Source: Norana najaformis (lineage: Eukaryota; Annelida; Clitellata; Crassiclitellata; Hormogastridae). Taken from it: a stretch of 64,000 nucleotides of DNA. The stretch lies in assembly GCA_964023275.1 (NCBI GenBank), contig OZ029918.1, positions 18,084,361 through 18,148,360 of the forward strand, read 5' to 3'. Below, piece by piece: positions 5,688 to 51,364 of the stretch. The number at the start of each line of letters is the position of its first letter. Position 1 is the stretch's first letter. The notes below the pieces were generated by a model. The model saw only the letters and a list, made by a program, of their open reading frames with translations. It did no database searches and had not been told where the DNA came from. The translations under genes and the position numbers were made by a program.

Positions 5688-6848
5688 TTGGCCAAGTCGA
5701 GGATGTATCACAATAAACCTGGCAACAACTCGAAGTGTTCTTCGACTTTGGGCCAATGCAGTCAGCTTACGCAAGCGTATTCTGGTCGCGTTAATCCTGA
5801 ACTTCATCACATCACAGGGGTCCTGCTATGGTCTCGTGCAGGTCGGCCTTTTCGCCCTCAGCACCGCCTTTCCTTGTTCTCTGCATTCGTTGCTCTTCTA
5901 CTGCTCATGTCGGGAGATGTTGAGAGCAACCCAGGCCCATCTTCCCACAGAGTCCAGACTAGGAAGATGACGTCGAAACAAGCGCCCATTAACTTCGGCA
6001 GCTTCAACATCTGGTCAGCAATCCGTAGTTCTGCCACTATTCATGACCTGATCATCGACGAACAGCTGGACTTCCTCGCACTTTGTGAGACATGGATTGG
6101 TGCTGACACACTCGATTGCATCAAGCGAGATATTGCACCGGATGGCTTCTCCGTTCTTCACGTTCGCCGTGGAACCCAAGGTCGCCCTCTAGCTGGTGGT
6201 GGCCTCGCTGTGATCTTCAGGTCCTTGCTGGACATCAATGTCCATCCTCGGGCAGAAATGCTCTGCTCTTCCTCATGTGAGGTTCAGCTGATACGAATCG
6301 GCAAATCGTCGACATCAATTACTCTCATCAACATCTACCATCCTCCTGGTGAAGTCGGCGATTTCTGTAACGACCTGTCGACTCTTCTATCATCTATTTA
6401 CGTTGAGGCTGGTGAAAGACTTCTACTCTGTGGCGATTTTAACTGTCCTGGGTCTAATGGTTACATCAGTGATGATCTAGCTGATATCTTCTCCAGCTAC
6501 GGCCCACGTCAGTACGTCGACGTTCCAACTCTCCTAGACGTCCTAGCTTCTGTTGACTGGACCACTGTGCACGACGTCCAGGTGAACAACGCTGGTCTTG
6601 TATCAGATCACAAACTTATACTGTGTAAGTTCACGACCTCCTGCCACTGCCGACCTGTTAGGCACAAGTATCGTAACATCAAAGCTGTAGATCCTGTACA
6701 GTTCAGTCAGTTGCTTGTTGATTCTGATCTGTTCACTGCACCAGCAAGCACTGCAGATGATTTTGCTGAACAGCTCAAGAGAACTGTGTCACATTGGATA
6801 AAGTCGCCCCTATTCACACCTGCTATCGGCGACCTTCTAAACCTATAA
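5688..6848 (+). CDS. 2A-led APE endonuclease part of LINE ORF2
   Basis: 386 codons. Residues 61-84 are a hydrophobic run (LSLFSAFVALLLLM) leading directly into GDVESNPGP (residues 76-84, bases 5913-5939), a perfect match to the 2A ribosome-skipping consensus. Skipping would release an 83-residue N-terminal peptide from the endonuclease-RT protein. The endonuclease follows, with N107 in SFNIWS, E134 in LCETW, GDFN at 249-252 and SDHKL at 306-310, the expected metal- and phosphate-binding residues. 2A-like sequences are known in LINEs of sea urchins, amphioxus and molluscs, and some act as secretion signals when not cleaved. The frame is lost at its end and the rest of ORF2 continues in another frame. 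Confidence 0.85.
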   Translation: MAKSRMYHNKPGNNSKCSSTLGQCSQLTQAYSGRVNPELHHITGVLLWSRAGRPFRPQHRLSLFSAFVALLLLMSGDVESNPGPSSHRVQTRKMTSKQAPINFGSFNIWSAIRSSATIHDLIIDEQLDFLALCETWIGADTLDCIKRDIAPDGFSVLHVRRGTQGRPLAGGGLAVIFRSLLDINVHPRAEMLCSSSCEVQLIRIGKSSTSITLINIYHPPGEVGDFCNDLSTLLSSIYVEAGERLLLCGDFNCPGSNGYISDDLADIFSSYGPRQYVDVPTLLDVLASVDWTTVHDVQVNNAGLVSDHKLILCKFTTSCHCRPVRHKYRNIKAVDPVQFSQLLVDSDLFTAPASTADDFAEQLKRTVSHWIKSPLFTPAIGDLLNL

Positions 6849-16108: not shown

Positions 16109-17407
16109 ATGGCCGCTTCTTCCCCAACTCCTCCGACTCGTGTGTACACTTCCGCTGAGCTACGTACCTACAATCAACCCGCTCTCACCATTCGACGTTC
16201 CTTACATAAGACTCTATTCAAGCTTCATCTATGGCGACCGGCATCTTCACGGCCTGGATTATCATCTCCCTCCTGCCAATCTCAGCCTACACCATTGGAC
16301 TCTGCTCCGTCGCCTACCTCTCGGCTGCCCTCAGACCTGGGTGGCAGTGATGGACTTAGACTTGGGACACTGAACGCTCGGTCACTGGGAAATAAGTTTA
16401 TGGAGATCGCCAACTCTATCTCTCAGCATAATCTGGATATTCTCGTCGTCACGGAGTCTTGGCACTCCTCTTTCTCTGATGTTCCGGTTCGACGTGCTGC
16501 TCCTCCGGGCTACCTATTCCTCGATGCTCCTCGCCCGGTTGATCCCTCACGTGATTCGCATCCTCTTGCGCAAAATCATGGTGGCACTGTTGTCTACCAT
16601 CGAGAACATTTTCAGGTCAAAAAGATCCCTCTTCCTCTCCCTGTTTCCACGTTCGAAGCATTATGCCTCTCCTGCGCCACGACTCATGGTCCAGTCACCG
16701 TTCTTGCCCTCTACCGGCCAGGCTCCTCTCCTGTTACGTCGACCTTCTACACCGAGTTCTCCTCGCTTCTGGAAGTCTTCGCCACCTTCAACTGCCAGCT
16801 AATCATAACTGGGGACCTGAACATTCACCTCGAGAACCCAGATCTTCCAGAGTCTGTCCGCTTCAACGATCTGCTTTTCCAATTTGGCTTCATTCAGCAT
16901 GTCGCTGAATCTACTCATGTGCTGGGAGGCTGGCTTGATGTCATTATCACCCGTGATGACTGTAGCATCTCAGATGTTATAGTAGAACCTCCAGCTCTCT
17001 CAGACCATGGACTTCTTCTATACAAGGTTCCTTTTCTATGTACCCAGCCAACATACGCGCTTCGGCTTGTACGTGGTTGGAACAACTTGGACCGTGAGGC
17101 ATTCCGTGCTGGTCTGAACAATAGTCCTCTCTGCGGAGACCTCTCCTCCCTTGCTGGCCGCTCGTCTGAAGAGCTCTTTGCTCTCTTTGACTCTTCAGTT
17201 CGCCTCCACATCGATGACCTCCTTCCGCTTCGTCCGCAGCGGGCCCGTCGGAGACCGTTAGCACCTTGGTTTGACCGATCCTGCCGTACTTTACGTCGTG
17301 ATGTCAGGCGGCACGAGCGAAGGTATCAACGAACACGTGATCCTGCCGATCGTCTCGACTGGATCCACCATCTTTGCTTAATGCACCGGGAGTTTCGAGC
17401 CAAATAA
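16109..17407 (+). CDS. ORF2 part 1: APE-type endonuclease
   Basis: 432 codons from an ATG in ACAAGATGG context. After a Pro/Ser-rich N-terminus, the endonuclease spans about residues 84-310: N89 in LNARSLGNK, E116 in TESW, GDLN at 235-238 and SDH at 298-300. A basic linker follows with ARRRPLAPWFDRSCRTLRRDVRRHERR and ends HREFRAK-stop. The TAA is immediately followed by an in-frame ATG, so the RT is in the same frame. The endonuclease nicks target DNA for target-primed reverse transcription. Confidence 0.9.
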   Translation: MAASSPTPPTRVYTSAELRTYNQPALTIRRSLHKTLFKLHLWRPASSRPGLSSPSCQSQPTPLDSAPSPTSRLPSDLGGSDGLRLGTLNARSLGNKFMEIANSISQHNLDILVVTESWHSSFSDVPVRRAAPPGYLFLDAPRPVDPSRDSHPLAQNHGGTVVYHREHFQVKKIPLPLPVSTFEALCLSCATTHGPVTVLALYRPGSSPVTSTFYTEFSSLLEVFATFNCQLIITGDLNIHLENPDLPESVRFNDLLFQFGFIQHVAESTHVLGGWLDVIITRDDCSISDVIVEPPALSDHGLLLYKVPFLCTQPTYALRLVRGWNNLDREAFRAGLNNSPLCGDLSSLAGRSSEELFALFDSSVRLHIDDLLPLRPQRARRRPLAPWFDRSCRTLRRDVRRHERRYQRTRDPADRLDWIHHLCLMHREFRAK

Positions 17408-19249
17408 ATGGCATACTGGGAGTCATTGATTGAACGGGAGAGGAGCAATCCGCGTCGGCTCTGGTCTTCGCTCTCCGGTGTCCTCGGCCGTTCTACCGCT
17501 TCTAACTCTCCGGCCCAGCCTCCGTTCACAGCGAATGACTACCTCGACTACATGCGCGGGAAGATCGACTCGATCCGCCAATCCACTGATGGTTCTCCTC
17601 CTCCTTCCTTTCCTCCTACGTCATCTAGGCTTTCATGCTGGAAGGCTCTGCCTTTGGACGTCCTTCGTCGGCTCCTGCTGGAGTCACCTGCTAAGTCCTG
17701 TGAACTGGACTTATTACCACCATTTTTAATCAAGGATTTTATAGATGACTTAATTCTGTTCTTACACTTGCTATGTAATACCTACCTGGGTCAGGGTTCA
17801 CTCCCGGCTTCTCACAAACGTGCTGTAGTCTTTCCCTCTCTCAAGCGCCAGGGACTTGACCCCAATGATATCTCTAACTACCGACCTATCTCTAACCTTT
17901 CCTTCCTCTCTAAGCTTCTTGAAAGATGTGTGTCCGTCCAACTGGTCGACTACCTTGACTCTAACTCCCTCATGCATCCTCTTCAATCTGGATTTAGGAA
18001 GTTCCACTCTACTGAATCACTTATTACACGTCTCCTGGCTGACGTCTTTGGAGCTTTTGACCGTGGACATGTTACTCTTCTTGCCCTCTATGATGTTAGT
18101 GCTGCTTTTGACACTGTGGATCACTCTATCCTTTTGGAGCGTCTAGAAAAATCTTTTGGCATTACTGATACGGCCCTTCTTTGGTTTCAGTCTTTCCTCT
18201 CAGACCGCTCTCATTCTGTTATCTTTGGGCCTACACGTTCCGCCTGGTCCCTTATACCTTTTGGCCTTCCTCAGGGTTCTGTTCTGGCATCTCTCCTCTA
18301 CATTCTGTACACTGCCGACCTGGCACGGGTTCTCCTTCCTATGGGTGTTGCTGTCCATCAGTATGCAGACGACACTCGGGCCTTCGTTCATGGCCCAGCG
18401 GAAGCAGCTTCCTCTCTGGTTGAGAGTATTCTTGACGCAACATCTGCCCTTGGTCTCTGGATGTCCTCTAATCGCCTCCGACTGAACTCTGCTATGACCC
18501 AGTTCATCTGGCTTGGTGGTCGTGCTCAGCTGGCAAAGACTGATTCATCATCCTTACGCCAGAGGTTTCCGGACATTCTATTCTGTTCCAAAGTCCGTGA
18601 TCTTGGGGTTGTTCTGGACCGGGAACTCTCCTTGACCGATCATGTTAACAGTGTCTCCCGTTCATGCTTTTACCACCTTCGTCAGCTTCGTACCATCCAC
18701 TGTTCCCTCTCCTTTCATGCCGTTACTACTCTAATTCATGCCCTTATCTGCACTAGGGTGGACTTTGGTAACGCTATCTTTGCTGGACTCTCACTTGCCA
18801 ATATTTCCAAGCTTCAATCTGTTCTCAATGCTTCTGCCCGTCTTATTGGAGGCGTCCCCAGGTATGGCCATATAACTTCCTTTATACGGGACACTCTACA
18901 CTGGCTTCCCATTCAGCAGCGTGTCCAGTTCAAGATCCTAACGCTTATGCGTAATTGTCTCGTTGGCTCTGCTCCATCATATCTTAGGGACTTCTGCATT
19001 TCGGTCTCCTTGGTTCCAGGCAGTAGCACTCTCCGGTCGGCCTCCCTTGGACTTCTGACTGTCCCTCGTATGCGCACTGCTACAGCGCAGTCTAGAAGCT
19101 TTGCCTATGTTGGACCCAATAGCTGGAATCGCCTTTCCCGAGCGCTCCGGCTAATATTCCTCAGTTTGTCTCTTCCGCAGTTTCGCAAGCGCCTGAAGTC
19201 TGTATTATTTGCCAGTGGTCTCACTGGTTCGAGTCGGGAGCGCTTCTGA
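17408..19249 (+). CDS. ORF2 part 2: reverse transcriptase and C-terminal domain
   Basis: 613 codons, in phase with 16109-17407. It starts MAYWESLIERERSNPRRLW, which is normally internal in CR1-group ORF2. RT motifs: ISNYRPISNLSFLSKLLERC (155-174), LYDVSAAFDTVDHSILL (227-243), GLPQGSVLASLLY (286-298), YADD at 319-322, then MSSNRLRLNSAMTQ and LGVVLDRELSLTDHVN. The C-terminal part has RVDFGNAIFAGLS, LHWLPIQQRVQFKI and SRSFAYVGPNSWN. The catalytic Asps are intact. The only visible lesion in the protein is the upstream TAA. Confidence 0.92.
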   Translation: MAYWESLIERERSNPRRLWSSLSGVLGRSTASNSPAQPPFTANDYLDYMRGKIDSIRQSTDGSPPPSFPPTSSRLSCWKALPLDVLRRLLLESPAKSCELDLLPPFLIKDFIDDLILFLHLLCNTYLGQGSLPASHKRAVVFPSLKRQGLDPNDISNYRPISNLSFLSKLLERCVSVQLVDYLDSNSLMHPLQSGFRKFHSTESLITRLLADVFGAFDRGHVTLLALYDVSAAFDTVDHSILLERLEKSFGITDTALLWFQSFLSDRSHSVIFGPTRSAWSLIPFGLPQGSVLASLLYILYTADLARVLLPMGVAVHQYADDTRAFVHGPAEAASSLVESILDATSALGLWMSSNRLRLNSAMTQFIWLGGRAQLAKTDSSSLRQRFPDILFCSKVRDLGVVLDRELSLTDHVNSVSRSCFYHLRQLRTIHCSLSFHAVTTLIHALICTRVDFGNAIFAGLSLANISKLQSVLNASARLIGGVPRYGHITSFIRDTLHWLPIQQRVQFKILTLMRNCLVGSAPSYLRDFCISVSLVPGSSTLRSASLGLLTVPRMRTATAQSRSFAYVGPNSWNRLSRALRLIFLSLSLPQFRKRLKSVLFASGLTGSSRERF

Positions 19250-26972: not shown

Positions 26973-28374
26973 TTATGCCATATACCAGTCCTTGCCTCTG
27001 CTCGCCCATAAAACATTCTCTGGAAAGCGATCTAAGTGACTGTGGAGATAATGGACTTTAATGCTCATGTTGCAGCCAAGCTTGTTGAAATGAAGAAGCA
27101 TATCCTCTACTAGTTGTGCATAATTGTCTGCCTTCTTGTTGCCAAGAAAATTTTTAGTTACAAGAACAAAGGAAGACCAGGCACAAGATTCGATTTCATT
27201 CATTGATGGTATGAAAAGTGGGTCATTCATAAGTTGCCTGATCTGTGGACCATCGAAGATTCCAGCCTTCAATTTTTCCATTGTAATTCCTGGTAACTTG
27301 TGTACTATGTATTCGAAGCATGAACCTTCTTTATTCAAAGCCCTGACAAATTGTTTCATCAGGCCTAGCTTTATATGTAGTGGTGGCAGTATGATCCTAT
27401 CTCGTGCCACCAAAGATTCCTTGATTATACTGTCCCAAAGATATGTTCTTTGTATTTTATCTTTTCCAGTACTAAAGAGATGGCATTGTACTCTTCTTTC
27501 ATCCTGGTGGAGTGACCGATTGGAATAGAACCAAATTTGTTGCCATTATTTAAAAGCACACATTTCAGACTACGTTTTGAACTGTCGATAAAAAGACGCC
27601 GCTCATCTGGGCTGTAATCCGACAGACCAATTTTCTTCAATAAGTTGCTGATGTCATTACAGAATACTAGGTTGTTGTCTTCGGTAAAGAATGGCAGCAA
27701 ATCCTTTTCTCTGTTTCTATAAATTGTAATTTTCGTTCCAGGCTGAAGTGCATTCTTTTCCTTTAGTCTGGACGCAAGCAATTCAGAGGACTCTTTGGAA
27801 AGATTTAAGTCCCTGATCAGATCACTCAACTCTTTTTGGTCAAAACGTTCACTGTGTGAAGTTGATTGGAAATCACTGTCACTGCCCCACTTTCTTCACT
27901 TTCGTCATCTTGTCCGATATTGGACATGCAAGTCTCATCGTCTGAGAGCTGAGGTAGTTCGCGAAAAGGTGGAACTGGTACAATATCCGAATGCGGAACA
28001 GGTCTCCTGGCTGAAGGTATATCAGGGTAAGACAACTTGTGACGATTATTTCGATTGATGCCTATGATATTAACCATACAAAAGTAACAGTCGTCGAAGT
28101 GGTTTATCTGTTCCCTCCAAACCATCAGTACACCAAATTTCAGGCAGCTTCTCTTTCCAATTGTCCAGTGGCGCAATTGTTCAATACAAGTTTTGCATAC
28201 TGTATGAGGAGCCCATTGCTTATCTTGATCTCCAAGTTTGACACCAAAATAACCTACATATGCTCTTTTTACAAACTCAGAAATCGGTTTCCTGTTTGCT
28301 TTTAGTGTGTATTCCCCACAAATGTAGCAGAATATGTCTGGATGGTTAATGCAGCTCCGTCTGGAAGTAGCCAT
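26973..28374 (-). pseudogene. Unrecognised Cys/His-rich protein family, decayed copy
   Basis: Three minus-strand frames. 28374-27826 starts MATSRRSCINHPDIFCYICGEYTL and includes CYFC. 27829-27425 has DLNLSKESSELLASRLKE and DERRLFIDSSKRSLKCVLLNNG. 27413-26973 has LPPLHIKLGLMKQF, FLGNKKADNYAQLVEDML and HYLHSHLDRF. They align in order with the plus-strand protein at 29902-31569. Differences: a homopolymer frameshift near 27830, deletion of the block containing CADLK and CFLC, and loss of the C-terminus after HSHLD. It is therefore a dead relative in inverted orientation, about 1.5 kb from the other copy. Confidence 0.75.
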
Positions 28375-29831: not shown

Positions 29832-29901
29832 CGAGATTGCGTAGAACGAAGGTGAAGTTTTCTTATATAGCTGTAGCTAGTGTGTGAGATTTAATTTTGA
29901 A

Positions 29902-31569
29902 ATGAATAGGCGAGGCTGTGTTAACCATCCAGACAATTTTTTCTATGTTTGTGGTAAATATACTCTTTGTGACCAGCGCAAGAAGTTAACTAAGAGAGTG
30001 ATGATTGCTTACAAGTATTATTTTGGATGTCGAATCAGAGACCAGGATAAAAGTTGGGCACCTCATGTCTGCTGCACCGTGTGCTACTCTGGGCTTACAC
30101 AGTGGCTGAATGGCAAAAGGAATTCAATGCCGTTTGCTGTGCCTATGGTGTGGCGCGAGCCAAGAAATCATCATGCAGACTGTTATTTCTGCATTACTAA
30201 AGTTGCTGGATTTTCAAAGAAAAATAAGTCTAAAATCGTTTATCCTGATTGCGAGTCCGCTCTAAAGCCAGTGCCGCATGATGAAGAGAATCCAGTACCA
30301 TTTCCGCCTGCTGCGGGTGCTGATGAAATGGACAGTTCTGATGGTAATACAGAAGATGACGTTACTGTTTATGAATCCGGTGATCAAGATTTGGAAGAGG
30401 GTAGGCCGCACTTGATAAGGCAAGGTGAGTTAGATGATCTGGTGAGGGACCTATCTTTGTCAAAGGAGAAATCTGAACTGTTAGCCTCCAGACTAGGGGA
30501 GTGGAACTTGCTTCAAAAAGGTACCACAACATCACACTTCCATTATCGTCACAAACAGTTAGCTACATATTACAAACTGGAAAATGATATCTGTTTCTGT
30601 ACTGACGTGAACGGTCTCATGCTGAATTTAGGTTGCGAATACGTTCCTGATCAGTGGAGACTGTTCATAGATTCCAGCCAAGCGAGCTTGAAAGCTGTGT
30701 TGGTGCACAGTGGTAGCGAAAAGCCATCTGTTCCTATAGCCCACGCTGTAGGCCTCAAAGAGACATATGATTCAATGAAACTCATTTTGAAAGTGATCAA
30801 CTACTCAGACCACAAATGGAACATCTGTGCGGACCTCAAAATGGTAGCACTTATTCTAGGCCTACAGCTGGGGTACACAAAACATATGTGCTTTTTGTGC
30901 TTTTGGGACAGTCGTGATGACACCAACCATTACAAAGTGAAACTGTGGCCTCCTTGATCTGAGCACATTGTTGGTCGGCACAACGTGCAACACGAACCAT
31001 TGGTAGATCCATTGAAAGTGTACTTACCACCACTTCACATTAAACTGGGCCTCATGAGGAATTTCGTAGTGGCAATGGATCGTACTGGACAAGGCTTCCA
31101 GTATCTGAGAGATAAATTTGGAGCCGTCAAAGCTAAGCTGAAGGCTGGAATTTTTATTGGGCCAGAAATCCGCGAACTAATGCGTGATACTGTATTTAGA
31201 ACCAAGCTCAACCCACTGGAATTTGCCACTTGGGATGCATGTACGTTGGTGGTGCAAAACTTCCTTGGGAATCACCGAGCTGAGAACTATGCTGAACTCA
31301 TTAGCAACATGCTAACAGCATATAAGCAACTCGGCTGCCGGATGTCACTAAAAATACATTTCTTACATTCCCATCTGGATTTTTTCCCACCAAACTTGGG
31401 TGATGTAAGCGATGAGCATGGAGAGAGATTCCATCAAGACATCTCCACCTTTGAAGCAAGATATCAGGGCCACTGCAATTCCAACATGATGGGCGATTAC
31501 TGCTGGTTTCTGCAGCGGGCAACAGCGGCCACTCACAAGCGCAAGAGCAACTGTCTAAAGCACTTTTGA
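29902..31569 (+). CDS. Unrecognised Cys/His-rich protein, possible RNase H-fold transposase
   Basis: 555 codons with one internal TGA (30955-30957, most likely CGA by CpG decay); the frame is otherwise intact. The ATG at 29902 is chosen because the decayed copy also begins near this point. Residues 6-100 have paired Cys/His: CVNHPDNFFYVCGKYTLC, APHVCCTVC, HHADCYFC. An acidic linker (138-166) follows, then SKEKSELLASRL, FIDSSQASLKAVL (D257), ICADLKMVALILG (D311), CFLCFWDSR.DTNH, PLHIKLGLMRNFV, and near the end HFLHSHLDFFPPN and SDEHGERFHQDI. The spaced Asp, Asp, CxxC, His and Glu residues resemble a DDE/RNase H-fold nuclease, but this is inference. Similar hypothetical proteins are, to my recollection, scattered in invertebrate genomes. 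Confidence 0.6.
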
Positions 31570-45689: not shown

Positions 45690-46000
45690 TCCAGCATTCA
45701 TCGCTTCTGCTTCTTCTTGCAGTCTACTTTCCTGCCGATTCACACCCTCTTTTCAGACCCCTTTGGTTTGGCCGTAACAGGGTTGGAGCTTGTAGACGTG
45801 CACCACAAAGGGACTGGCTTTTGGCGACTTCTGCACGAGATAATTCACAAGTCCACACTGGCGCACGATCATTTAAGGTCCGGTGTACATTCGCTGCCAT
45901 TTCAGGCTACGGCCCTGGTATCTCCGAGGCGTGTAATACCATACCCAGTCTCCAACACCGTGAGGGTATAAATGTGCCCTCTCTTACTCCTCGGATGGGG
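45690..46000 (-). pseudogene. Integrase C-terminal domain, with start of the core
   Basis: Next to the Polinton the minus strand reads PHPRSKRGHIYTLTV, the beginning of the integrase core. It then jumps, in another frame, to GVGDWVWYYTPRRYQGRSLKWQRMYTGP, a stop, and VNYLVQKSPKASPFVVHVYKLQPCYG. The GDxVW...KWxxxYxGPY...V.Y.VQ...HVDKLK pattern is the GPY/F-type gypsy integrase C-terminus. Most of the catalytic core, including the later D and E, is missing, a deletion separate from the Polinton insertion. Confidence 0.8.
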
Positions 46001-46005
46001 ACCGG
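46000..46005. repeat. 6-bp target site duplication, left
   Basis: GACCGG, identical to 50116-50121. Removing the Polinton and one copy restores an in-frame integrase reading (ERLSIDITG joined to PHPRSKRG). Confidence 0.9.
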
Positions 46006-46606
46006 AGTAGTAAGGAGACCACAGATCCTGGCCCACCCCAAAACGACCGCAGATCCTGGCCCACGTCCAAACGCCCACAGATCCTGGCCCACTTCCAAAC
46101 GACCACAGATTCTGGCCCACTTCCAAACGACCACAGATTCTGGCCCACTTCCAAACGACAACAGGTTTAAACTCAGCTCCAAACGACCACGGGTTTAAAC
46201 TCAACTCCGAACGACCACGGGTTTCAACTCCAAAAGTTTATTCATTTATAATAATAAATATGATTTAATAAAATATTTTAATAAAAGATCTGCGGACATC
46301 GCTTAAATATAGTTCATTATAAGTTGTATATAGCGCTATAAACGCGACAAAGGCCCTATAAATGTAATTAGATGGAAGAATGGATTTTCTTTAGATTATC
46401 GGTCCGAAGCCATGGCGCCTTCAATTTCTTGGTCTTGGTCTATACACGTCTTATACTGACACGCGGACACGCATAGATAGGCGAATACGAGCAGACATAC
46501 ACACCCACGCACGCAAACGGACATTCATTGAGAGGTGCAGACACGCGTGTACGCACACAAATCCCCAGACACACACACAAACAAACATGCACACATACAA
46601 ACACAC
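46006..46606. repeat. Polinton left terminal inverted repeat
   Basis: About 601 bp. The outer part is a 28-bp tandem array (about seven units with a CCAAACGACCA core, of two subtypes). An AT-rich middle follows, then a CA-rich inner part with ACACGCGGACACGCATAGAT. It is longer than the right copy because of about three extra outer units. Confidence 0.88.
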
Positions 46607-46793
46607 TTAATCCCAACCGCTAATACTGACGCAGACACGCAAACAAACGCGAGGACACATTCGCAAGTACGCGTACACACACAAACTCAAATACGATATT
46701 GCGATTATAATTTACAACCCTATATTTGCGACAGAGATGAAAGACTGGAATTCTTATCCCTGACAACGTCCATTTAGCGTCAATTTATGACTC

Positions 46794-46895
46794 TCGCTCT
46801 CTCTCTCTGTCTCTCTCTCTCACTCTCTCTCTCTCTCTGTCTCTCTTTCACTCTCTCTGTCTCTCTTTCTCTCTCTCTCTGTCTCTTTCTCTATG
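46794..46895. repeat. (CT)n microsatellite
   Basis: About 100 bp of CTCTCT with occasional GT and TT interruptions, inside the Polinton. Confidence 0.9.
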
Positions 46896-47078
46896 GAAGG
46901 AGAAAGAAAAAAGGAATTGTATTCCAGTAGATTTAAAATTGTATAGATTTTATTGTTTTGAAGCTTCATTTGCTAAGAATTGTATTTCTTTAAATTTAAG
47001 TTTTATAGATTTTAGTTTACAAATTCTATACTCTCTAGATTTTGATCAATTTTGATCCTCTTTCTAACAAGAAGAATA

Positions 47079-47109
<31 letters not shown>

Positions 47110-48369
47110 AGAGGAGGAGGAGGAGGAGGAGGAAGAAGATTCACACACATACTCAAACGTACAGACAGGTGCAATCTCTTACAGGCAACCGACATCGTCT
47201 GAGAAACAAAGGCGTAGGCGATTATACGGGTCCGCACCCACACGAGTACACACGCATTCAATCACACACACACAAACACCACACACACACACACACACAC
47301 ACACGGACGACCACACGAGCAGACACGATTACCAGGACGACTATGCGTATATATATATTTATATCTCAGCCATTATATATGCGAAGAAGAATCGAGCTCC
47401 AGTAGATTTTAAATTATATAGATTTCATCGTTCCGAAGCTAGGAATCTGCCTAAACACGTCTTTCAATGACACGCGGACACGCATAGATAGGCGAATACG
47501 AACACACAAACAGAGACACACACGAGCAAACGGAAAAATCGACGAGAGATGCAGACGGACGAGTACGCAGACAAAGGAAGACGCACACGCTTAGACACAC
47601 ATACATACGGACAGACGTACGCGTTTACTCCTAACAGGCTAATACTGACGCAGACGCGCACACAAACCCACAGACACACACATACAAGCATACGCACAGA
47701 CAAATGCATAGGTTTACTCCTAACGGGTTAATACTGACGCAGACGCGCACACAAACCCACAGACACACACACACACACACAAACTCAAATACGTTGTAAC
47801 AATTACGATTAAAACGCTATACATTCGTCTAACTGACACGTATTCGCGTCGCGGATGAAAGAACAGATGTCGTTAGTCTGGCATACGAATTTATGACTCT
47901 CTCTCTCTCCCTCTCTCTCCTATCCATACGCGTATATCTCTCCGGATCAATACTATTGCATACGAGCAAACTGTGAAACAGACTTACAAGCGTATACATA
48001 CCCAAAATGGATAAGTTTTAAGTTGAGAACGATATGACGGGAGCGACAGAGCGTAACGAACAGACGCGGATATATTTGCGTCCGAGCCAAATATTGATCT
48101 AACGTGTTCAGACTCGAATTGTATAACGTAAAAGAAACGACACTATATAAATAAACATCGCGCATTTAGCCTGGCCTACAAATTTATATCTTGGACGAAT
48201 GAGTAGTATATATATTTGTCTAAGATTGGCATTAATTAATATCGGCAAGCATTCGTTTCTAATAAATCGTACCCAGCAAACGTGACTTTCATCCATTGAA
48301 TTTAAAGATTTAATAGCATTCCGAAATTTGCAATTATAATTGGCGTTCGAATGAGCGACTTCTTAAGAT
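46896..48369. other. Polinton interior: simple repeats, no gene
   Basis: Contains a (GAA/GAG)n run (about 47079-47141), a (CA)n run (about 47268-47304), a second CT run (about 47897-47923) and a partial copy of the inner inverted-repeat sequence at about 47455-47575. A 60-bp sequence is repeated at about 47627-47690 and 47711-47770. Open frames here follow from the repeats and are not genes. Confidence 0.75.
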
Positions 48370-49450
48370 ATCCCCCCCTTGCAGTCGTTGACATTTGCGA
48401 AGATTGACGGCTTTGATCCACCTCACCCTGAAAAGTTAGGTCTCAAACACGGAAACGACGTTAAAAAATTAGTGCCAAACTTTAACGGCAAGACAAACTA
48501 CGTCGTCCACTATCGGAATTTACCATTTTATTTGAAAATGGGAATGAAATTGACAAAAATTCACAAAATTTTGCAATTCGAACAATCAAAGTGGCTTAAG
48601 ACATATATAGATTTCAATACTAGCAAGTGTCAGGCTGCCACGTCTTCTTTCGAGAAAGATCTGTTTAAGCTTTTCAATAATTCGGTCTATGGAAAGACCC
48701 TCGAACAGACGCGCCATCATCCGAACGTGCGCATCATTACCAATGCAAGATCGGCAAAACGTTATATCGCTCGTCCGACTTTTATGTCGTTTCACATTAT
48801 AAACGATAGATGTAACGGTTATTTAGTTAACCAAGTCTTCCATCTTGCAAAATAAACCCGTATACGTTGGCATGTCTATTTTGGATATTTTAAAATTGCA
48901 AATGTACAGTTTTCATTACGAACATATCTTGAACGTGTACGGCGAAAGAGCAAAATTGTTGTTTACGGATACCGATAGTTTGTGCTACCACATTCGCACG
49001 GACGATGTCTATTCCGATATGAGAAATCATATTTACGATTACGACACGTCGGATTATCCTCCCGATCACATTCTTTACAGCCGCGATAACGCTAAAGTAA
49101 TTGGCAAATTTAAAGACGAAACCAATTCCGTACCTCCAATCGAATTTTTAGGCTTGCGCTCAAGAATGTATAGCCTGTTGCTTCCCGACAATAAGGAAAA
49201 GGAAACTGCAAAAGATATTAAGAAATCGTTTGGGAAGAAAAATATTCGTCGCGAACATTATAAGAGTTGTCTGTTCGACTAACAACCTACATCGTCTAGG
49301 TTTTTCGCCATTCGCAGTCGTAAACACGATTTGCACACTATAGAGATCCGCAAAACGGCTCTTTCGCCTTTCGACGATGAACGTTTTCTGCTTAACATAA
49401 TCGACTCTTTAGCTTACGGACACGTGCGTATACCCGTTGCCGAAGCTTAA
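48370..49450 (+). pseudogene. Polinton protein-primed DNA polymerase B, C-terminal half
   Basis: 48379-48855 holds LTKIHKILQFEQSKWLKTYIDFN and KLFNNSVYGKTLE (motif B, NSxYG). After a frameshift near 48845 the frame to 49282 holds VGMSILDILKLQMYSFHYE, LLFTDTDSLCYHI (motif C, catalytic DTD) and EFLGLRSRMYSL. A TAA at 49280 is followed in the same frame by SRKHDLHTIEIRKTALSPFDDERF and LAYGHVRIP, the usual C-terminus of these polymerases. The exonuclease domain and motif A are missing at the 5' end. This polymerase would copy the element from a terminal protein primer. It is dead here. Confidence 0.88.
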
Positions 49451-49601
49451 TCTTTAGTATTCGCTTTTGTCTGTTATTAACTTGAAGAATGTTTAGTTTG
49501 TCAACGTTAATTTGGTCATCGTTGCTGTTTCTCGAGTAATATATGCTTATTTTTACATTTCTGATGCTAATAACATCATCACAGTTTCAATACGTTTTGG
49601 T

Positions 49602-50115
49602 TGTGTGTTTGTATGTGTGCATGTTTGTTTGTGTGTGTCTGTGGATTTGTGTGCGTACACGAGTGTCTGCACCTCTCCGTGAATGTCCGTTTGCGTGCGT
49701 GGGTGTATGTCTGCTCGTATTCGCCTATCTGTGCGTGTCCGCGAGTCAGTATAAGACGTGTATAGACCAAGACCAAGAAATTGAAGGCGCCATAGCTTAG
49801 GACCGATAATCTAAAGAAAATCCATTCTTCCATCTAATTACATTTATAGGGCCTTTGTCGCGTTTATAGCGCTATATACAACTTATAAGGAACTATATTT
49901 AAGCGATGTCCGCGGATCTTTTATTAAAATATTTTATTAAATCATATTTATTATTATAAATGAATAAACTTTTGGAGTTGAAACCCGTGGTCGTTTGGAG
50001 CTGAGTTTAAACCCGTGGTCGTTTGGAGCTGAGTTTAAACCTGTTGTCGTTTGAAAGTGGGCCAGAATCTGTGGTCGTTTGGAAGTGGGCCAGGATCTGT
50101 GGTCTCCTTACTACT
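49602..50115. repeat. Polinton right terminal inverted repeat
   Basis: About 514 bp, inverted relative to 46006-46606, with the same inner CA-rich and middle AT-rich parts. The outer 28-bp array is about three units shorter. Confidence 0.88.
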
Positions 50116-50121
50116 GACCGG
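50116..50121. repeat. 6-bp target site duplication, right
   Basis: GACCGG, identical to 46000-46005. Confidence 0.9.
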
Positions 50122-50330
50122 TGATATCAATACTTAATCGTTCCCACGGTTTTCCACATGGGAGTGGCTGTAGTGGTCCTTGCCTGGGGGGCTGACCACG
50201 GCGATATTGACAGCATTGGGGACAGCGTTGGGAAAAGCGCCCAACTTCCTTTGACCATCCTACCCAATACTCCCTACGTCGTACCTGCAATTTGGTCCGT
50301 CGGATCCCCCGTATGTGCAAGTCTCAAGAA
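50122..50330 (-). pseudogene. Integrase zinc-binding domain and start of the core
   Basis: Minus strand: REYWVGWSKEVGRFSQRCPQC, then PLQPLPCGKPWERLSIDITG. This is the HHCC zinc finger (Cys pair intact, His pair unclear) and the first catalytic-strand Asp (SIDITG) of a gypsy integrase. The core is cut by the Polinton. Confidence 0.85.
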
Positions 50331-50360: not shown

Positions 50361-51364
50361 CTATTCCACGCCACTGGGCAACTTCCTATAGGCCACGTCA
50401 TCTCGTAGGTACAAGTAATCCTTCTGATACCAGTATGTCCTTACGGTCTCGCTTTCGCACAAAACTCCTTGCAGGTCGGGGACGTCAGCGTTCGGGCTTA
50501 GCCATATTCTCACCAATAGCCAGGTCAGGATCCTTTTCTGTACCTCTGCCACAGGGTCTACGGAATCAGTTTCAGGGTCCCCAGAATTCTCTGTACTTTC
50601 CGTCACAGCGACATCGGTGGCATTATCCTGTGCTCCAGTTGTCTCCTTCGCGGCAGCCACCACGGAGATCTCTTCATCCCAACCGCACTGGCGGCACGGC
50701 TTCCAAGAAAGAGCGTCCGCATTGCCATGTTTCCGCCCAGACCAATGGACCACCTCAAAATCAAACTCGGCAAGGCGTTCGAGACAATAGGTTCATGAGT
50801 TCGTTGTAACCACTGCAGCGCGGCGTGGTCTGTCCGGAGAGTGAACCGTCGTCCCAGCAGATATTGCCGATAGAGCTTCGTGAAGTACACTATCTCCATC
50901 ACTTCCTTCCGGGTAACGCAGTAATTGCGTTCTGCCGTAGAAGGTAGGCGGCTACCATAAGTGACTACTCTTTCATTCCCGTCTATGCGCTCGGACAATA
51001 CTGCGCCAATCCCCGTATCCGACACGTAACAATCCAGCACATAAGTCCCTTCGTCAGTAGGTAAACCTAATACCGGTGCAGTCGTTAAAGCTGTATTCAA
51101 ATGGTCAAAGGCGTTCTGGCATTCATCATCCCATATAAACGGCTTGTTTTTCTTCGTAAGTGCAAACAAAGGGGACGCCACCAGCGAGAAGCTGCGGATA
51201 AACTTTCTATAGTATGCGCAGAACCCTAAGAAGGCGAGCACTTCCCTCAGCCGTTGAGGCGTAGGCCACATAGCCACCTCGTGCACCTTCGAGGGGCCAC
51301 CGCTATTCCTGTTGGGGTCACGACATGCCCCAGAAAACAAACCGTCCTGCGCAGCAAATGGCAT
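50361..51364 (-). pseudogene. Gypsy RT end and RNase H
   Basis: 50603-51364 contains LREVLAFLGFCAYYRKFIRSFS, PLFALTKKNKPFIWDDECQNAFD and TAPVLGLPTDEGTYVLDCYVSDTGIGAVLSE (catalytic region with the first Asp changed to Cys). Then come NYCVTRKEVMEIVYFTKLYRQYLLGRRFTLRTDHAALQWL and a frameshift. 50361-50753 continues with VHWSGRKHGNADALSWKPC (the HGNADALSR signature) and a linker to the integrase. Confidence 0.85.

Follow-up and report, generated by a model that had tools for sequence, protein, structure and literature searches.

The 64,000-nucleotide stretch of DNA analysed here, referred to as the window, comes from the annelid Norana najaformis (assembly GCA_964023275.1, contig OZ029918.1, positions 18,084,361 to 18,148,360 of the forward strand) and contains at 46006-50115 a 4110 bp element that the evidence supports as a non-autonomous derivative of a Polinton. 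At the places listed in this genome, elements of the same anatomy with 6-bp target duplications carry separate gene sets: a protein-primed DNA polymerase (PolB) on elements here termed P, and an integrase, ATPase, protease and capsid-like protein on elements termed V. Taking both statements together, we consider it likely that the family is split in this way in this genome and that the window element is an internally deleted P-class copy without ~5.7 kb of its interior.

The element begins with AGTAGTAAGGAG and finishes with CTCCTTACTACT, which gives an AGTAGT start, an ACTACT finish and the exact (AGT)2//(ACT)2 motif. It is flanked by perfect target duplications, GACCGG, at 46000-46005 (left) and 50116-50121 (right; no strand for either); as a chance level, 6-mers match at the spacing of the element at 14 of 59,600 positions. 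The left terminal inverted repeat (46006-46606, +, AGTAGT end) is 601 bp long and the right (49603-50115, -, ACTACT end) 513 bp, which confirms the AG...CT termini, inverted repeats of 500-600 bp and perfect GACCGG duplication described in an earlier note on this DNA. The outer part of both repeats is made of 28-bp units: the left repeat has seven complete ones, starting at 46017, and an incomplete eighth, the right repeat four complete ones and an incomplete fifth. With the three extra units of the left end set aside, the arms show 14 mismatches in 502 compared bases and 4 gap columns. Inside the left repeat lies a non-coding subterminal region (46607-48429, no strand), parts of which recur in V as well as P elements elsewhere in the genome and which stops at the deletion junction. 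It contains an old degenerate direct copy (47414-47942, +) of 46387-46837, 80% identical outside gaps, with a score of 252 (at most 75 in 100 block shuffles). Besides the PolB remnant no coding-looking sequence was found in the element, and Rfam and tRNA scans gave no help. A search of its interior for integrase, ATPase, protease and capsid-like frames found none, in agreement with the earlier note, which had also placed its size far below the usual 15-20 kb. Of the features of a Polinton it thus has the 6-bp duplication, the end motif, the inverted repeats and the C-terminal third of a protein-primed PolB in a broken frame; an integrase of its own, its own ATPase, protease and capsid genes, and a size of 12-25 kb are missing.

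The PolB remnant is broken into three pieces, which follow one another in gene order on the + strand and occupy two frames. Piece 1 (48428-48852) contains NNSVYGK; piece 2 (48845-49279), in a different frame from piece 1, contains LFTDTDSL and is ended by an in-frame stop at 49280-49282; piece 3 (49283-49450) is the C-terminal end. Together they amount to ~340 residues, the last third of a protein-primed PolB; the longest open frames of the subfamily are 1107 residues and are open at no fewer than two places in the genome. That this is a remnant of such a polymerase, as had been proposed from the letters, is borne out by 1037 relatives of piece 2 at E<=0.001, by its DTDS motif, and by a predicted model (mean pLDDT 81) that fold-matches viral PolBs (best E 1.4e-7), bidna- and densovirus-labelled ones among them. 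The pieces also match PolBs on misbinned metagenome contigs. Pfam returned no match for the pieces of the window element; DNA_pol_B_2 was found (E 2.1e-17) in the middle part of the PolB from the close relative C6_19.4. No solved structure matched the piece 2 model at E<=0.001, the PDB being of no help by sequence or by fold, and searches of IMG/VR and phage records gave no help either; PHROGs returned endonuclease VII-type stretches, in one PolB only.

The deletion junction lies at 48428-48429 (no strand). Its left side matches the left ends of other elements and its right side the PolB of C6_19.4 and C3_16: window 48428-49613 is 92.2% identical to the PolB part of C6_19.4, and the PolB part of C3_16 is 92.5% identical over a slightly shorter stretch. 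In C6_19.4 the two segments matched by the window element are separated by about 5.7 kb. The deletion may have come either before or after the insertion of the window copy. In piece 2, two of 30 invariant columns deviate (0-4 in 21 other sequences), and the lesions of the PolB comprise at least one frameshift and one stop. If the repeat arms were identical at insertion, their divergence gives an expectation of 2.7 lesions since then (0.56 stops and 2.1 indels). Around the time it inserted, the window element therefore probably still had an open PolB frame. Because it is little decayed and its lesions fit this expectation, the deletion would be recent or have occurred in place, and a long-lived 4-kb lineage is unlikely.

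Relatives were sought in the 608-Mb, 17-contig assembly that contains the window, and all counts from the genome searches are lower bounds. Searching with the opening 100 bp of the window element yielded at least 51 matches (best 40 of 48 candidates). Besides the pair belonging to the window element itself, eleven pairs of inverted matches were found, 11 of 11 with perfect 6-bp duplications and AGT...ACT ends, and two further elements were reached through PolB matches, with the end motif as the sole guide to their limits; both duplications then proved perfect. The genome search that the earlier note had called for therefore yields 13 other bounded elements with these termini, and perfect duplications stand at 14 of 14 with the window element included. 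For five elements (C9, C2_39, C3_16, C5_30 and C5_22) the true end lies farther out than the match, by 43-124 bp, and was located partly by means of equal 6-mers, so that the duplication is not independent there. The bounded members span 2.0-11.5 kb; C3_24 has the one variant end motif among the family ends. The autonomous parent of 15-20 kb that had been expected was not found, the nearest relatives being 10-11 kb long and split. An assembly artefact is ruled out by the 17 contigs and the 14 bounded copies with matching duplications.

Elements of the V class carry an A32-like ATPase, an integrase, a capsid-like gene, a Peptidase_C5 protease and PC4, and are without PolB. The bounded ones are 8.4-11.5 kb long: C5_22 (9976 bp, duplication GACGAG), in which Pfam finds rve and a chromodomain; C2_39 (8411 bp, GACGTG), in which the integrase is missing; C3_24 (10,811 bp, GATATT), in which it is broken; and C6_18.9 (11,480 bp, TCTGTA). 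Two others, C6_19.51 and C7_15.5, were each read over one 10-kb stretch with their ends unmapped. An integrase is present on five of the six V elements read (by Pfam for C5_22, by tblastn for the rest). C2_39 and C5_22 are 97-100% identical, four of their five aligned blocks exceeding 99.5%, with the integrase region absent from C2_39, and this pair must have moved recently. The capsid-like protein has 466 residues, is related to a protein that neighbours the protease gene of contigs L010 and L011, has no Pfam match, and is open over 466 aa at five or more places. With three PolB queries no PolB was found in any of the six V elements at E<=1e-5 (four read end to end, two over 10 kb); at E<=1e-3 four of the six gave short matches to piece 1, three of 17-18 residues and one, in C3_24, of 54 residues at 39%, which begin in the part of piece 1 left of the window junction. 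A DDE_3 (mariner/Tc1-like) transposon is inserted in one V element (L059:2168-3285).

The P elements are C6_19.4 (10,318 bp, duplication CCTACG), C1_0.96 (10,832 bp, CAGCAG) and C1_51.5 (10,237 bp, GTCTAG). At 10.2-10.8 kb they hold PolB and two small unknown frames, and no integrase or virion genes were found in the three; in C1_0.96 and C1_51.5 ~1.1 kb inside PolB is unread but spanned by the PolB match. A fourth PolB-bearing element, C3_16 (10,832 bp, ATGGTG), is a hybrid with ATPase and PolB, and none of the four has an integrase, protease, PC4 or capsid-like gene. V and P elements are alike in their AGTAGT...ACTACT ends, in the 28-bp repeats there and in left subterminal regions that are related to each other. 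The ends of C6_18.9 (V) and C6_19.4 (P) are 86% identical over 296 bp, and the first 22 bases of C2_39 (V) and C1_51.5 (P) are the same.

Other members belong to neither class. No polinton gene was found in three elements with ankyrin-repeat genes (L046:4385-5251, L056:5046-5765 and L060:7437-8231), namely C11_20 (6545 bp, duplication GACCGA), C5_30 (11,539 bp, AACGTT), which also has a SOCS box, and C11_25, whose right end was not found. C11_20 and C5_30, which sit at different sites and differ in their duplications, have ~5 kb of cargo in common at 85-89%; for C11_25 the shared cargo is 2.1 kb. The duplication of C11_20 (C11, 20.15 Mb, L046) differs by one base from the GACCGG of the window element. 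Two short elements, C5_28.5 (1997 bp, GTAGCC) and C1_48.6 (2276 bp, AAGCAC), and an unclassed one, C9 (6190 bp, CATAAA), with a PC4 scrap and retroelement-like frames, complete the bounded set; at a single-end place on C16 (L061) none of the genes of the family was seen.

The separation of PolB and capsid-like genes was followed through the genome with the middle of the C6_19.4 PolB (at least 106 matches, best 104 of 427 candidates) and the capsid-like protein (at least 98 matches, best 91 of 177 candidates) as queries. Among the matches listed, PolB falls in 24 places of the window subfamily (>=66% identity) and in 73 places of a second group (40-54%), many of them with open frames of ~1280 residues. 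All 30 PolB matches at >=66%, 74 of the 76 other PolB matches and 61 of the 98 capsid matches were used for pairing, the last giving 46 places in all, of which 30 are at >=80% identity; gene content was read at four of the 24 PolB places and six of the 30 close capsid places. No subfamily PolB lies within 11.7 kb of any of these 30 listed capsid-like places. The closest listed pair, on C11, is 11.8 kb apart, and between the two lies a putative element end, recognised from an ACTACT motif and an adjoining repeat match. The nearest listed PolB outside the subfamily is >=20 kb from each of the 30. Among the 37 capsid matches left over, 22 fall in places already counted and 15 in about ten new ones; one new place exceeds 80% (C4, 88% over 41 residues), with the nearest PolB ~160 kb away or farther, and by eye no listed PolB stands within 100 kb of the others. 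One such match would raise a degenerate capsid place (C1, 48.44 Mb) above 80%.

As controls, 12 contigs from other sources with this kind of PolB were read. On five (L002, L008, L009, L010 and L011) this PolB is accompanied by integrase, protease, ATPase or capsid-like genes, and the remaining seven have none of this other gene set at E<=1e-3. In the second PolB group the one member read, at C1:27.5 Mb (L073, L074), has PolB and protease side by side, its ends not found. Combined arrangements are thus detected by the method where they are present, and the split arrangement looks derived. Polinton-type PolBs occur on contigs binned in bacterial metagenome-assembled genomes (12 records, L001-L012), which are presumably eukaryotic contamination.

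In the most likely mechanism, PolB supplied in trans would start at the ends of the elements and copy them, and their insertion, with a 6-bp staggered cut, would be the work of the V-class integrase; V elements would need an outside polymerase, which either P elements or the second PolB group could provide, and ankyrin-carrying and short elements would ride along. Since the P elements read are without integrase, a P element or its derivative would have been inserted by an outside integrase, most simply that of V, and from its anatomy the integrase that inserted the window element most likely acted in trans. The earlier note had argued that clean ends imply mobilisation in trans, but the argument fails, since ends stay just as clean when the interior is deleted from a copy already inserted. 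Its conclusion has other support, from the integrase-free PolB-bearing relatives and from the ankyrin elements with common cargo at different sites, and the two bounded ankyrin elements without PolB or integrase are the best evidence here for such movement. From the same anatomy we infer that V and P elements recognise each other's ends, depend on one another and are copied by protein priming. Whether the whole amounts to a multipartite Polinton, with PolB and the integration and virion genes on separate end-sharing elements that complement each other in trans and are accompanied by ankyrin/SOCS-box cargo and short satellites, is a proposition on which we are evenly divided.

Several observations weigh against a strict division of this kind. 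Transposition, virions and action in trans are putative, being read from anatomy. Exclusivity of the gene sets is imperfect, since ATPase and PolB occur together in the hybrid C3_16. For most pairs of V and P elements the ends resemble each other less than in the best pair, which weakens cross-recognition, and the best listed end partner of C2_39 is this same hybrid (78% over 161 bp). The second PolB group could supply the polymerase. The capsid place at C1, 48.44 Mb is ~11 kb from a PolB of that group and megabases from one of the subfamily, and a capsid-like place on C17 (64% identity) is 3 kb from another, a pair that is probably an old combined copy.

The principal alternative is that the window element was a complete, monopartite Polinton that encoded the integrase by which it was inserted and whose interior was deleted afterwards at this site. 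Such a deletion would leave identical ends and duplication, and the little-decayed PolB with lesions at the post-insertion expectation fits it as well; against this, no complete member of the subfamily was found in the places listed, and the closest PolB relatives read (C6_19.4, C1_0.96 and C1_51.5) are integrase-free and have a related left region, so that we regard this history as unlikely. An expansion of the 4.1-kb form itself as a MITE-like family, which the earlier note had raised, is unsupported and very improbable: the 2.0- and 2.3-kb elements with perfect duplications do exist, but their interiors are different and without PolB, and the window junction is absent from all 13 other bounded elements (the eleven, and the two with longer PolB). 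Least credible of all, to the point of being nearly dismissed, is an integrated bidnavirus-like or other PolB virus that is not a Polinton. The fold matches to bidna- and densovirus-labelled PolBs would suit it, as would the proposal, in the part of the source available, that bidnaviruses acquired PolB and ends from Polintons (PMC4061559). It is opposed by the 6-bp duplications, the AGTAGT ends and the presence of rve integrase, Peptidase_C5 and A32-like ATPase on sister elements. Foldback/Galileo elements were rejected as well. Their inverted repeats are long and repetitive inside, their duplication differs in length and their transposase is P-type; the repeats of the window element look similar, but its duplication is 6 bp and the sister elements have PolB and rve integrase. 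The split family, with the window element as a deleted P copy, remains the preferred reading.

The target of the insertion is a gypsy element on the - strand, with an RNase H-like domain at 50603-51364, the integrase zinc-binding domain and first core residues at 50120-50323 (PF17921, E 4.6e-6) and an Integrase_p58 C-terminal domain at 45756-45872 (PF22938, E 1.1e-5; 25.9 bits, just under the curated cut-off of 27). The C-terminal domain starts ~130 bp past the insertion in a different frame; the 102-position rve core therefore cannot fit, and the interrupted integrase is without a catalytic core, in a copy that was defective already or became so. The earlier claim that excision restores in-frame integrase reading holds in part: translations of both sides show the frame continuing across the insertion junction itself and only there, but the integrase is defective, with its C-terminal domain in another frame. 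Insertion after the arrival of the gypsy element is supported. Elsewhere in the window an unnamed repeat-borne gene is present in two copies, at 27826-28374 (-) and 29884-31569 (+), the latter with relatives in Helobdella (robusta), the sponge Oopsacas and a frog record; a further copy stands beside an ankyrin element at L060:8758-9501. Long frames of non-LTR retroelements lie at 16109-19249 (+) and 5688-6848 (+), and a GDVESNPGP string in the latter resembles a 2A-type peptide.

Polintons are known as self-sufficient ("self-synthesizing") elements, and Repbase may list short non-autonomous ones. In the literature searched (titles and abstract openings, with subscription journals partly covered and Repbase outside), no split or non-autonomous Polinton family was found, nor any paper with the exact phrase "non-autonomous Polinton". 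Surveys may have overlooked split families of small Polintons; one, in the part of it available, set aside Polinton-like elements <10 kb as incomplete (PMC4028283). For vertebrate Mavericks, the accessible part of one report (PMC8097293) gives (AGT)2//(ACT)2 as the commonest end motif, a repeated motif linked to the jumping-back step of protein-primed replication, with 6-bp duplications, inverted repeats of 46-1447 bp, and intact elements of 12.7-24.6 kb with eight genes on one element (seven in Xenopus tropicalis). The present family resembles Polintons/Mavericks (Polintoviruses) in its ends, long inverted repeats, 6-bp duplications and protein-primed PolB and, at family level, in rve integrase, A32-like ATPase and adenovirus-type protease; it differs in that its genes are split between ~10-kb elements. 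The fragmentary Mavericks of Mayetiola destructor are comparable in being short and limited to either polymerase or integrase, but their consensuses are 600-4500 bp and described as fragmented copies; the part of that report available mentions no bounded ends or duplications (PMC8504770).

If the split is real, the division between polymerase and integrase-capsid elements would be a chromosomal counterpart of multipartite viruses, polinton machinery would be seen to act in trans, and the family would offer a setting for the origin of polymerase-and-ends scaffolds, as proposed for bidnaviruses, and of gene-carrying polinton derivatives. The Bidnaviridae have a genome in two parts with shared ends, and we know of no integrase in them. 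Theirs is a parvovirus-type capsid, whereas the present family resides in chromosomes and has retained the polinton set. The likeness between the two extends to the polymerase, that of the Bidnaviridae having been proposed, in the portion of the source available, to be of polinton origin (PMC4061559).

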